Assembly: GCA_013215095.1 (NCBI GenBank)
Contig: JABSPM010000088.1
Location: forward strand, 1-64,000
Source of the DNA: Flavobacteriaceae bacterium
GTDB taxonomy: Bacteria > Bacteroidota > Bacteroidia > Flavobacteriales > Flavobacteriaceae
Direction: 5' to 3'
DNA length: 64,000 nt
The position numbers were made by a program, and so were the translations under genes. Positions 3,083 through 29,953 of the stretch are shown piece by piece (position 1 is the first letter of the stretch; every line of letters starts with the position of its first letter). Under the pieces are notes generated by a model. It ran no database searches and was not told the origin of the DNA. It saw only the letters and a program-made list of their open reading frames with translations.

Positions 3083-3383
3083 TTTATTTTAGTTTATTGG
3101 TGTTTTTATATCATAAGTCCCCGATTAATTGTGTGGATTTTGAAGGCTCAGTTTAAGACCAATCAACGGTCACAAAAGCCTCCTCAAAATTAACCACAGC
3201 AGAGAAAATGTTGATCAACATTAAGGTTAAATCTTACAAAATACTGCTACAAAACTACATTTCATCGTATTTTTTAATCGTTTTGTCGAAAATAGTGCTT
3301 TTTACTTACACTTGCAAATTTCAACTCCATTTTTCTCACATTAGGTTCAAAATTAATTTCAAAAGGTCTTTGAATATGTTGTA

Positions 3384-3447
3384 CTTCATATAAGGTAGAA
3401 AATAACCCTATCTAAAGCTATGCGTTCATTTTCTACCTTATATGAAG
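3384..3447. repeat. Perfect 20-bp inverted repeat, 24-nt loop
   Basis: Arm CTTCATATAAGGTAGAAAAT (3384-3403) is the exact reverse complement of 3428-3447. The stem is long and symmetric and has no following T-run, so it is not a typical terminator. It lies 12 bp from the half copy of the dispersed element. It could be the end pair of a small mobile element or a recombination scar. Confidence 0.85.
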
Positions 3448-3459
3448 CAAAACATCAAC

Positions 3460-3496
3460 TTTTTCTTTTACGTTACTTTCAAATGGAAAATGGTAT
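3460..3496 (+). repeat. Dispersed element, right half (copy A)
   Basis: Matches 29715-29751 at 34 of 37 positions, ending TTTCAAATGGAAAATGGTAT, the terminal inverted repeat of the dispersed element. The left half is absent; the 20-bp hairpin stands in its place. Confidence 0.7.
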
Positions 3497-3917
3497 TACA
3501 TACACGGAGTAAAAAATAGGTTTAAACGGTTTTAACCCCATGTTTTTATCAAAAATCCCTAGGCTATAGGATAAAAAAGATGCCGATAACGTTGAACTAC
3601 TCATTTTTTAACAGCACTAATTGGTAAGAAAAAAGTTAAACGCTTAGACAGTACCTAAGGCTTCGGTGTCTACTATATTAGATTATAACGTTGATCCTAT
3701 TGCACAACTGGAAGTCGTGTAACAGAACTTATAATTAAAACAGCTCATTCGTTTAATCTCATGTAAAAAACAATTGGTATTAACTTATTGTGCATCTCTA
3801 ATTTTAAAAAATAAAAACATAACTCAGGTCTCACAACATGTATGCTAAAAATTTTGTAAAAAAGTGCACAAAAGATCATTCTACAAGGCGCATTTAAACG
3901 CGCTTAAGGTCAGCGCA

Positions 3918-4490: not shown

Positions 4491-5797
4491 TCTTTATTTG
4501 TCGTAATTTTAATACGTTTTATTCGTTTTTTATCTAAGGCTTCTATAGTAAAAACGTATGTTTCAAAATTTATTTTACTATTAACCCTTGGAAAACCACC
4601 ATAAATTTCTAAAACAAATCCTGCAATGGTTTCGGCTTCACCTTTATTAGCTTCAAAAACAGTATCATCATCAACTTTAATAATACGATACACTTCTTTT
4701 AAAGGGGTTTTTCCTTCAAAGACATAGTTGTTATCATCTAATTTAGAATAGCTGAGATTATCCGCATCAAATTCATCACTTATATCGCCAACAATTTCTT
4801 CGATAACATCTTCTAATGACACCAATCCAGAAGTTCCGCCATACTCATCTACCACCACTGCCAAATGCACTTTTTTCTCTTGAAATTCCTGCATTAAATC
4901 ATCTAGCTTCTTGTTTTCTGGGACAAAAAATGGAGCTCTTAACAAGCTTGTCCATTCAAATTCTTTTTTATCTAAATGCGGCAATAAGTCTTTGACATAA
5001 AGCACCCCCAAAATCGTATCTACATTGTCTCTAAACACAGGAATCCTAGAGTATCCTTTTTTAATGATATCTGGAAGTATCTCGCTAAATTTTAAAGTTT
5101 CATCCAACGCAAAAATATCTATTCTTGGCTGCATGACCTGTTTAGTATCTGTATTTCCAAACGACACGATACCTTGCAAAATCTTTTGTTCTTCTTTGGT
5201 TGTAGCGTCTTCACTGGTTAATTCTAAAGCTTGAGACAAATGATCGACACTCAATTTTGATTTCTGCTTTCCTAATCTACCATGAATACGCTTTGTAATG
5301 ACCTGCATTGGCACACTAAAGGGTGAGAAAAACAGATCCAAAGCTCTTAGCGGATATGCCATAAATTTTGCAAATTTGACGTTATTTCTACTCGCATATA
5401 CTTTAGGTAAAATCTCTCCAAACAATAAAATCAAAAAGGTTACAACGACCACTTCTACTACAAATTTAAGCAGCGGTGAACTTATAGTATCGAAAAAATA
5501 GGTACTGAGATAGGCAAACAAAATCACGACTCCGATATTAATAAAATTGTTTGTAATTAAGATGGTTGCCAATAATTTATGTGGCCTTTGTAATAACTTG
5601 TATATAATTTCGAATGGTTTGGACGCTGCTTGTAACTCCTCATCAATATCAGCCTTCGACAAAGAAAATAGTGCCACCTCAGCACCAGAAATTAGAGCCG
5701 AGCAGAGCAACAGTAACAGCAGCAGCAATACTCCTGAAACAACAGTAAAATCTATTGACATTAAGGCGATAAACAAACTATAGGGCTCAGGATCCAA
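4487..5797 (-). CDS. gldE: GldE, CNNM/CorC-family membrane protein
   Basis: 436 residues. The first 190 hold a DUF21 (CNNM) transmembrane domain with a Leu-rich first helix and the motif LISGAEVALFSLSK. A pair of CBS domains follows at about 205-330 (MQPRIDIFALDE, LVSLEDVIEEIVGDISDEFD), then a CorC/HlyC domain at about 345-430. The family has been linked to Mg2+ transport and haemolysins; in flavobacteria GldE is genetically associated with GldD and gliding. It ends in an ATGA overlap with gldD. The start MDPEP fits homologues better than the internal Met at residue 13. Confidence 0.92.
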   Translation of the reverse strand: MDPEPYSLFIALMSIDFTVVSGVLLLLLLLLCSALISGAEVALFSLSKADIDEELQAASKPFEIIYKLLQRPHKLLATILITNNFINIGVVILFAYLSTYFFDTISSPLLKFVVEVVVVTFLILLFGEILPKVYASRNNVKFAKFMAYPLRALDLFFSPFSVPMQVITKRIHGRLGKQKSKLSVDHLSQALELTSEDATTKEEQKILQGIVSFGNTDTKQVMQPRIDIFALDETLKFSEILPDIIKKGYSRIPVFRDNVDTILGVLYVKDLLPHLDKKEFEWTSLLRAPFFVPENKKLDDLMQEFQEKKVHLAVVVDEYGGTSGLVSLEDVIEEIVGDISDEFDADNLSYSKLDDNNYVFEGKTPLKEVYRIIKVDDDTVFEANKGEAETIAGFVLEIYGGFPRVNSKINFETYVFTIEALDKKRIKRIKITTNKE

Positions 5798-8226: not shown

Positions 8227-9771
8227 ATGAATAAAGAATTAATTATTCGTTCTAGTTCTAATAATGTTGATTTTGCCTTATTAAAAGATGGAAAACTAAT
8301 CGAATTACAAAAAGATGAAGACGATAACAAGTTTTCTGTTGGTGATGTGTTTATAGCCAAAATCAGAAAACCTGTACAAGGACTTAATGCTGCATTTGTT
8401 AATGTAGGTCATGAAAAAGATGCGTTTTTGCATTATCATGACTTAGGTCCAAAACTCCCTTCACTTTTAAAATTCGTAAAACGTGTAAGCACAGGTAAAC
8501 TTAAAGATTATTCTTTAAAGGATTTTCCATTTGAAAAAGAAATTGATAAAGGCGGAAAGATTAATGACGTCTTAAAATCAAATCAATCTGTATTAGTACA
8601 AATCGTAAAAGAACCTATATCCACTAAGGGTCCAAGAATCAGCTCAGAAATATCTATTGCTGGACGTTACTTAGTCTTAGTTCCTTTTTCTGAGCGCATT
8701 TCTATTTCACAAAAAATTGAAACACGCGAAGAGAAAGATCGTCTTAAACGGTTGGTAAAAAGTATTACTCCAAAAGGATTTGGAGTCATTGTACGTACTG
8801 TTGCAGAAGGCAAAAAAGTAGCAGAACTAGATAAAGATTTACAAAATTTGTACAGTCGTTGGACTGCAATGTGTAAACAGCTACATAAAGCACATCATCC
8901 CAGTAAGGTACTCGGAGAAATGAATAAAGCCTCTTCTATTTTAAGAGACATTTTTAATGATACATTTACTTCGATAACTGTTGATGATGAAACGCTTTTT
9001 TATCAAATTAAAGATTACGTGCAAGAAATTGCACCCAAAAAAGAATCCATAGTTAAGTTATATGAGTCTAATGTTCCTATTTTTGAAAAATTTGGAATAG
9101 AAAGACAAATAAAAACGTCATTTGGAAAAACCGTATCCATGGCCAAAGGAGCCTATTTAGTGATAGAACACACAGAAGCTTTGCATGTTATAGATGTAAA
9201 CAGTGGTAACCGTTCTAACAAAGCTAAAAGTCAAGAAGACACAGCTCTCGAAGTTAACCTCATTGCTGCTACCGAGTTAGCACGACAATTGCGCTTGCGC
9301 GATATGGGAGGTATTGTAGTGGTAGATTTTATAGATATGAGCCATGCCGAAAACAGAAAAAAACTCTTTAATCATCTTAGAGATGAAATGAAAGATGACA
9401 GGGCTAAACATAAAATTTTACCACCAAGTAAATTTGGATTAATACAAATGACCAGACAACGTGTACGACCAGAAATGAATATTAAAACTAGAGAAGAGCA
9501 CCCTAATGGTGTTCAGGGTAAAGAAGTTGAAGCCACTATAGTTTTAGTAGAAAAAATCAATCACGAACTGGAACAACTATTAAAAAAAGACTACAAAAAG
9601 ATAACCTTAAACACACATCCTTTTATAGCAGCCTTTTTAACGAAAGGTTTTCCATCTATACGTTCAAAATGGTTTTTTGAACACAAAAAATGGGTAAAAA
9701 TACAACCAAGAGATGCTTACACATACTTAGAGTATCATTTTTATGACAAAGATGGTTCTCAAATTAAATAA
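8227..9771 (+). CDS. rng: Ribonuclease G/E family endoribonuclease
   Basis: 514 residues from MNKELIIRSSSNNVDFAL, chosen over an upstream in-frame Met because this is the conserved RNase G N-terminus. It has an S1 RNA-binding domain (about 38-130, with VGDVFIAKIRK and LNAAFVNVG). The catalytic core holds both metal-binding motifs: IDVNSG (near residue 322) and VVDFIDM (near 366). The size fits RNase G, without the long RNase E degradosome tail. It cleaves single-stranded RNA in rRNA processing and mRNA decay. A 254-bp spacer without a gene precedes it and a terminator follows. Confidence 0.94.
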   Translation: MNKELIIRSSSNNVDFALLKDGKLIELQKDEDDNKFSVGDVFIAKIRKPVQGLNAAFVNVGHEKDAFLHYHDLGPKLPSLLKFVKRVSTGKLKDYSLKDFPFEKEIDKGGKINDVLKSNQSVLVQIVKEPISTKGPRISSEISIAGRYLVLVPFSERISISQKIETREEKDRLKRLVKSITPKGFGVIVRTVAEGKKVAELDKDLQNLYSRWTAMCKQLHKAHHPSKVLGEMNKASSILRDIFNDTFTSITVDDETLFYQIKDYVQEIAPKKESIVKLYESNVPIFEKFGIERQIKTSFGKTVSMAKGAYLVIEHTEALHVIDVNSGNRSNKAKSQEDTALEVNLIAATELARQLRLRDMGGIVVVDFIDMSHAENRKKLFNHLRDEMKDDRAKHKILPPSKFGLIQMTRQRVRPEMNIKTREEHPNGVQGKEVEATIVLVEKINHELEQLLKKDYKKITLNTHPFIAAFLTKGFPSIRSKWFFEHKKWVKIQPRDAYTYLEYHFYDKDGSQIK

Positions 9772-9812: not shown

Positions 9813-10255
9813 ATCTGCTACTCCAGCACGAGCCCGCCCTTGTTTTCTTCTGAAATTTAGGGTTATTTATAACGGTTTCATACCGTGCCCAATTTGGACG
9901 TAATACGCTTTTTGTACTGTGTTAAAAAGCAAGCTTCAATTGTAGTTTTTTATATGAAGCCATAGCAATATTAATACACAGCAACCGCTATTGCATCAGA
10001 TAAGCACTAGATACATAAAGCCATCAACCCTAAAACTGATGACTCTAATACCATTTTTCAATTGAAATTACTTGAATAAAACGCCTTTTCCCCTTTCTCT
10101 TTCCATCTAAAAAGAAACCCTAGCTGAGGCTATACTTTCATTTCCTAATTTAACTTTTATAATATTTTCAAACTGAAAACAATATAATTATCTTATAAGA
10201 CTTAGAGCTCAAAAAGCAGTCATTTCTTAGCTTGTCTAGGCTAATGGGCTTTATC
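9813..10255. other. 443-bp spacer between convergent genes, with element copy B
   Basis: No supported gene. It holds a partial copy of the dispersed element (10048-10112). The rest is AT-rich; the short open frames on both strands look random. Confidence 0.6.
10048..10112 (+). repeat. Dispersed element, left part (copy B)
   Basis: Starts ATACCATTTTTCAATTGAAA, the left terminal repeat, then ACTTGAATAAAACGCC (10070-10085), identical to 29690-29705. The right end is degenerate. Confidence 0.75.
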
Positions 10256-16656: not shown

Positions 16657-16676
16657 ATGCCATTTTACATTTGAAA
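16657..16676 (+). repeat. Dispersed element, left terminal repeat only (copy C)
   Basis: ATGCCATTTTACATTTGAAA differs from the left end of the full copy at two positions. Nothing after it matches, so it is a solo end in the 220-bp spacer. Confidence 0.55.
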
Positions 16677-29630: not shown

Positions 29631-29953
29631 TTTAATTACAATCATTTAGATCTTGTCACTAATTCCAATGCCATTTTCCATTTCAAATGACTTGAATAAA
29701 ACGCCCTTTTCCCATTTTTCTTTTACGGTACTTGCAAATGGAAAATCGTATAAAGTTCAAAATCCAACATTACGAAGCTACCGAAGTGGTTTCGATACAA
29801 AATGGCTGCGCCGTTATATTACGGGTTAACCTAGCTAATGTTTAGGTGCTTTAACAAGGCTTGTTATATTGTTAAAAATGAAGTATATACAAATTATTGG
29901 TATCATACGTCGTATTCTCCTATTTTAGTACTCCAATAAAACTACACCAAATT
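29631..29953. other. 323-bp spacer with the full copy of the dispersed element
   Basis: Holds the 84-bp element (29668-29751). The rest is non-coding and AT-rich, and must contain the promoter of the thioredoxin/TPR gene, which I cannot place with confidence. Confidence 0.6.
29668..29751 (+). repeat. Dispersed inverted-repeat element, full copy (D)
   Basis: 84 bp. The left end ATGCCATTTTCCATTTCAAA and right end TTGCAAATGGAAAATCGTAT are imperfect inverted repeats of about 20 bp. The core is ACTTGAATAAAACGCC followed by a C/T-rich stretch. Parts recur at 3460, 10048 and 16657, always between genes. It has no coding capacity, so it would be a non-autonomous MITE or REP-like element. Confidence 0.75.

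Follow-up and report, generated by a model that had tools for sequence, protein, structure and literature searches.

The window analysed here, a 64,000-nucleotide stretch from a Flavobacteriaceae bacterium, holds copies of an intergenic repeat that very probably represents a family of non-autonomous hairpin DNA transposons, about 160 bp long when intact, old and decaying in this genome and carrying a folded core. The mobility of the element is well supported: a 3-bp target is duplicated at its ends, and some other genera show recent amplification. Its fold is kept across genera by compensatory changes.

Copies in the window

The earlier note on this DNA, made from the sequence alone, had described a dispersed inverted-repeat element with a full copy at 29668-29751 and partial copies at 3460-3496, 10048-10112 and 16657-16676. 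Matching sequence is present at all of these places, although its extent proved different (Table 1). The supposed full copy has the inverted ends but lacks the centre of the unit of about 160 bp, and two of the supposed partial copies are in fact much longer than proposed. At the remaining site the end sequence was confirmed, as a single end, and this may be a remnant of the element. All four sites lie between open reading frames (ORFs) of at least 80 aa, as had been claimed.

Table 1. Element copies and parts of copies in the 64-kb window. R1, sequence model; R3, core model with structure.
Feature	Position	Strand	Details
Element copy, centre deleted, 82 bp	29669..29750	+	left end 29669-29687, right end 29732-29750
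Element copy, 136 bp, centre present, right end degraded	10049..10184	+	R1 E=6e-20
Element copy, 152 bp, left end degraded, right end intact	3344..3495	+	R1 E=2e-18, R3 E=4e-6
Inner hairpin of the 3344-3495 copy	3376..3455	.	arms 3376-3403/3428-3455 (28-bp inverted repeat), 93% complementary
Lone left end, 2 mismatches	16658..16676	+	end-sequence match

The 3344-3495 copy is flanked by TTA on both sides (3341-3343 and 3496-3498) and the 10049-10184 copy, on which the core model R3 scores weakly (E=0.1), by TAA on both sides (10046-10048 and 10185-10187). The 29669-29750 copy has CAA on its left (29666-29668) and TAA on its right (29751-29753). With up to 3 mismatches allowed, 6 end-sequence matches were observed in the window, where 0.11 would be expected; a match at 8518, inside an ORF, is probably due to chance. 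A weak R1 match (19 bits) at 4870-4993, also within an ORF, is probably chance too. The window further contains a tandem array with a 192-bp period (17-892), perhaps encoding protein-domain repeats.

Copies in the rest of the genome

The window belongs to contig 106 of a draft genome of 3.07 Mb. When this genome was searched by blastn with 29640-29880, 71 matching pieces were obtained at E ≤ 10, of which 51 had E < 1e-3; the query is counted among them, and left-half and right-half pieces of one copy are counted separately. Two doubts raised in the earlier note, that there might be no further copies and that copies might align by A/T runs alone, are thereby removed, the matches extending beyond such runs. 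Many of them consist of a left half and a right half with a variable gap between. End sites numbered 126 with up to 3 mismatches, compared with 3 for a reversed control, and 92 with up to 2 mismatches, compared with 0.

For the alignment of copies from this genome, 36 stretches were fetched in addition to the window. The 28 copies with two ends measure 64-161 bp, 13 of them falling at 146-161 bp and 15 at 64-123 bp; these 15, the 29669-29750 copy among them, have no centre. Six full-length copies are just 81.5% identical on average, and the family is therefore old in this genome, its copies having diverged and in many cases lost the centre or one end. Two routes of decay were seen, central deletion and, in genome G149, fusion of ends. 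The latter gives 24-bp palindromes (G149:C2:771970-771993 and three like sites) composed of two fused element ends, which look like the products of deletion between short direct repeats present in both.

A second type of element, which has ends TACCATCTCTACTCC... and shares the subterminal motif, occurs in the genome at loci L063, L080 and L089 (contigs C93 and C5), sometimes beside or within first-type copies; L087 and L108 seemingly combine one end of each. None of this second type was found in the window.

Length, ends and core

Outside the window's own genome the length of the element is nearly constant. Among delimited copies elsewhere 50 of 51 measure 158-161 bp, a set made up of best matches to a model of 159/160 positions, in which short copies are under-sampled. 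Free of this choice, and alone among our length data in that respect, are the end sites of G051, where 40 of the 48 sites can be paired, giving 20 pairs (17 of 160 bp, 2 of 159 bp and 1 of 76 bp), and 8 are single. The 51 copies were retained from 59, the other 8 having no ACCA/TGGT at their ends; truncated or core-only model matches had been dropped earlier (among them L196, L201, L202, L221, L222, L235-L238, L240-L243, L253-L257, L267, L268 and L270).

Between genera the ends differ at positions 9-13, and the centre, CGTAGC-NNNN-GCTATG with the A/T blocks around it, is almost invariant. In the four copies of G486 (L254-L257) the core lies, by eye, between quite different inverted ends, and G025 has two end types in one genome. 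On rough ORF calls of at least 70 aa, no overlap was found for 44 copies from other genomes, one for 22 from the window's genome (22 of the 30 blastn loci) and two for 29 in a second set, these last lying within ORFs of just 74 and 79 aa. A near-constant length outside the window's genome, one long compensated hairpin and wobble mostly on one strand (see below) are all features unusual for a miniature inverted-repeat transposable element (MITE).

Distribution

Presence across genomes is sporadic. With the sequence model R1 (E ≤ 1e-4) the element was detected in 83 of 397 genomes sampled from the family, representing 67 of 237 genera, and with model R2 in 20 of 395 genomes of a sample of the order, which added two further families (f2 and f7); both counts include the window's own genome. 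In a phylum sample holding many genomes of the same family, the core model R3 matched 8 of 395, seven of them from that family (the window's genome again included) and the eighth, G897, from another order of the class, with at least 10 core matches. Matches thus fall in four families overall, one of them by the core model alone. End sites with up to 2 mismatches, counted in a sample of 299 genomes, reached 13 in G072, 8 in G152 and 4 in G191, most others having 0-3, near the control level. The sample of relatives comprised 39 other genomes, each of a different genus from the window's. Copy numbers from the 40-genome searches are lower bounds, since the best 7-10 candidates were scored per genome, and several copy sets are not independent, because some genomes contribute more than one copy.

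Searches with the exact core pattern of the window's subfamily, which is too strict for relatives in other genera, gave no match among viral contigs and one in genome_contigs (84,980 species, perhaps without the window's own). The latter, in a Campylobacterales metagenome-assembled genome, was taken as chance, the rest of the element being absent. Plasmids and phages searched with a G259 copy gave no match.

Target duplication and mobility

The earlier note had proposed looking for target-site duplications, and a 3-bp TWA duplication was found both in the window's genome and elsewhere. The test set from the window's genome consisted of 43 copies: 28 of 41 aligned entries (30 were kept, of which L037 and L062 were dropped for shifted ends) and 15 of 17 further pairs (L085 and L105 dropped; for 23 of 40 loci no second end lay within the limits). 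Most triplets flanking TACC...GGTA read TAA or TTA, with the left triplet differing from these in 15 of the 43 copies and in 18 of 51 elsewhere. The middle base agrees between the two sides in 34 of 43 copies (18.4±3.0 when shuffled; reached in 0 of 5000 shuffles) and the whole triplet in 20 of 43 (10.6±2.5; 1 of 5000), and agreement over 4 bp was not seen in these copies. In other genomes the flanking triplets are identical in 28 of 51 copies, against 14.4±2.6 when shuffled (0 of 5000). The middle bases agree as the same base (A/A in 19 copies and T/T in 14) and hardly ever as complements (A/T in 2, T/A in 1), which indicates a duplication and not the pairing of a stem or hairpin.

A search of 398 genomes of a single genus yielded one empty site: G1151 lacks a 159-bp unit that is present in its congener G500. 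The flanks are 88% identical over 426 bp on the left and 95% over 701 bp on the right, the two pieces overlapping by 2 bp, and the left copy of the duplication at this locus reads TA, not TAA. The site fits insertion or precise loss alike. Six copies each from G149 and G051 have mean identities of 96.5% and 94.7% within the genome, compared with 71% between genomes, so the family has multiplied within genomes and its amplification in some genera other than the window's is recent.

The element thus has the terminal inverted repeats and the target-site duplication of a MITE and is short and without coding capacity, and the description of it as an old MITE holds: its ends are inverted, it is mostly intergenic and non-coding with a 3-bp duplication, and its full-length copies in the window's genome have diverged to the 81.5% identity given above. 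The 3-bp TWA/TNA duplication expected of IS5 and PIF/Harbinger elements is also present, and we take duplication of TWA to be linked to IS5- or PIF/Harbinger-like transposases. In the scheme that we favour, a transposase supplied in trans would recognise the inverted ends TACCATTT.../...AAATGGTA, and the unit would be inserted at a TWA triplet, which would be duplicated in the process. To judge from that duplication, the enzyme would be of the DDE type. A fitting transposase would be one whose own element has ends TACCATTTC... and duplicates TWA.

Search for a partner transposase

The earlier note had also suggested looking for a transposase with matching ends, and none was found among PF01609 proteins of the window's genome or PF13586 proteins of seven genomes. 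The window's genome has 12 PF01609 loci, some of them cut by contig ends, and none has matching ends. PF13586 matches occur in four of seven genomes that carry the element; G149, a carrier of recent copies, has none. Where ends could be defined (five copies in G234 and seven in G676) they differ from those of the element, and the PF13586 elements of both genomes, presumably IS1182-like, were rejected as partners. G676 contains 24 near-identical copies of a 450-aa transposase; for seven of them the ends were read, and these do not resemble the ends of the hairpin element.

Among the G051 end sites, which never pair at more than 160 bp, no long element sharing the ends of the hairpin was detected. 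For a longer element in G149 left-type ends alone are detectable, the right end lying beyond the allowed mismatches. A gene beside an end in G191, by eye what we take to be IS66-like, was set aside, as its second end was not found and the contig ends nearby. One copy in G139 (L253; G139:C1:2487710-2489877) is interrupted at about position 61-64 by a 2-kb insert, by eye a group II intron with its reverse transcriptase; because it encodes that enzyme it was rejected as an autonomous element.

A hairpin kept across genera

The whole unit is predicted to fold on itself. In an alignment of 33 copies from 31 genomes, the nine column pairs that rank highest by corrected mutual information lie on nested antidiagonals running from the ends to the inner stem. 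Under its default settings RNAalifold predicts 12 central pairs at -0.8 kcal/mol; a hairpin of 62 pairs emerges when RIBOSUM scoring is used and the penalty for non-standard pairs is halved. In this hairpin 88.3% of cells pair, against 81.2 when shuffled (0 of 500 shuffles), and 30 pairs have changes on both sides, against 15.4 (0 of 500); this structure comes from the very alignment on which it is tested, and rows that are related may exceed shuffles without any structure. Cells changed on both sides number 133 against 40.2±4.9 when shuffled (0 of 500) and 23-30 in slid registers, the latter being the stronger control. Fold energies of the 33 sequences, with 60 shuffles each, have mean z values of -4.8 on the plus strand and -6.7 on the reverse strand, single sequences being as weak as -0.6 on the reference strand and -2.5 on the other. 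With default RNAalifold, 13 copies from the window's genome gave no consensus fold and no pairs; a larger alignment, A3 (19 of these copies and 3 others), likewise gave no pairs, with a weak excess of covariation. This is expected if dead copies are no longer held to the fold.

Sixty pairs are predicted on both strands. Their 1945 cells comprise 1700 Watson-Crick combinations, 129 A.C, 21 G.T and 95 others, compared with a shuffled expectation of 143.5 A.C and 55.2 G.T, so that the excess of A.C largely reflects column make-up and G.T is the type avoided. The asymmetry is weaker with the reference-strand structure (129:56) than with that of the other strand (188:22). Counted by pair A.C prevails over G.T 31:6 (34:8 for the union of structures), and counted by sequence 31:2. 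In 24 copies outside the alignment, several per genome, it recurs as 115 A.C against 29 G.T (23 of 24 sequences; 30:9 by pair). The outer helix carries more of it (80:10) than the inner (49:11; 93:43 on the union), and a fixed central G.T at columns 74/87 (32 of 33 rows) runs against it. Since an A.C mismatch corresponds to G.U on the opposite strand, the reverse strand is seemingly the one that folds. Substitutions among 19 copies of the window's genome are even between strands (T>C 0.038 and A>G 0.037; G>A 0.149 and C>T 0.138), which argues against mutation bias as the simple cause.

Interpretation

Because the fold is kept by compensatory changes, the folded form of the strand opposite the reference probably matters, as RNA or as single-stranded DNA, and we infer that the fold may serve the element or its host. 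A stronger version, which we offer tentatively and hold to be possible at best, is a mobile structured module: within a hairpin of almost constant length, the core of about 90 nt around CGTAGC-NNNN-GCTATG would act as a folded single strand, either RNA or DNA, and mobility would persist over long spans of evolution through swapping of the ends, so that unrelated transposases could carry the same core. The foreign ends of G486, the two end types of G025 and the core matches of G897 in another order would fit this idea.

The best-surviving alternative, though doubtful, is that the element is an ordinary MITE with a functionless fold, its palindrome being maintained by copying of one arm from the other (template switching in quasi-palindromes) and the centre shared by common descent. 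Symmetry of the whole hairpin is usual in MITEs, RNAalifold finds little structure by default, and many pairs switch between A-T and T-A (for example columns 19/146, 59/103 and 60/102), which single wobble steps could not achieve. However, copying between arms should remove mismatches, yet bulges, a C.C mismatch at 72/89 (in most rows, by eye) and the G.T at 74/87 stay fixed across genera. Nor does this account predict more A.C than G.T, and the even substitution rates do not supply the difference.

It is rather unlikely that the element is instead a spread chromosomal regulatory RNA or terminator, transcribed from the opposite strand and acting in the messages of neighbouring genes. The intergenic sites, often near gene ends, and the wobble on the opposite strand would suit such a role, as would a first context set in which the reverse strand was sense with both neighbours 17:3; but a second set gave 8:7, the two pooled 25:10 (p=0.017) and the window's genome 8:6, and presence is as sporadic as the 20 of 395 genomes in the order sample. 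Orientation relative to genes was thus strongly biased in the first set but not in the second, and was not built upon. Transposition through a folded single strand, as for IS200/IS605 or integron cassettes, would explain why one strand folds better and tolerates wobble, but those systems are not known to leave a target duplication and a 3-bp one is present here, which makes this route highly improbable. The REP-type label of the earlier note, and with it REP/BIME-like repeats made by a RAYT transposase, can be given almost no weight, for although the element is intergenic, palindromic and high in copy number, it measures about 160 bp and duplicates TWA, compared with palindromes of 20-40 bp in the text of PMC3733652 available to us.

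Relation to known families

The preferred reading, a non-autonomous hairpin transposon with a folded core, invites comparison with described repeats. At gathering cut-offs Rfam gave no match, Flavo-1 (RF01705) included, in the window and 15 loci with copies, and the 22 matches at a loose threshold were all under their family cut-offs. Flavo-1 RNA, a flavobacterial motif, was rejected as the identity of the element, being above its cut-off at two other loci of the genome alone (G000:C36:2486-2578 and C82:14009-14079). The earlier note had recognised no described name, and none was found here in the open-licence literature on MITEs and repeats in flavobacteria or Bacteroidetes.

To our knowledge, the bacterial MITEs and hairpin repeats compared here are confined to one species group, one genus or a few. 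With ERIC, NEMIS and bcr1 our element shares small size, intergenic position, folding and mobility. ERIC duplicates a TA target; NEMIS/Correia has inverted ends, a TA duplication and a range of one genus; and Cardinium belongs to the same phylum as the host of our element. Likened by description, ERIC (enterobacteria, 127 bp) resembles the element in being intergenic, in forming one long stem-loop and in having copies with lost ends, an erosion of inverted ends that the accessible part of PMC2267715 describes for cholerae copies; it differs in that our element spans many genera. NEMIS/Correia (Neisseria, 106-158 bp), whose size range and type are tabulated in the same part of PMC2267715, is similar by description in its two length classes and intergenic position. 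Of similar size is bcr1 of the Bacillus cereus group (~150 bp), again likened by description, which is mobile with a conserved fold; in excerpts of PMC2267715 its length is 167 bp by that study's count and 147 bp according to the literature, and a shared structure is predicted, and an excerpt of PMC6542083 gives up to 130 copies, a TTTAT motif and confinement to that group. Our element has instead a TWA duplication, palindromic ends and a range of many genera. MITECca01 of Cardinium (240 bp) is a mostly intergenic MITE too, but its likely parent, of the IS982 family, is known, it comes from one strain, and the portion of PMC9769881 available to us mentions no conserved fold. As far as we know, then, the family is new relative to the literature searched and wider in range than the known kinds that it resembles: it keeps its length, fold and core over many genera of one family, with core matches reaching another order. 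It offers a testable case of a mobile element with a constrained, non-coding, folded interior, and a convenient sign by which mobility can be recognised in the unannotated intergenic DNA of these bacteria.
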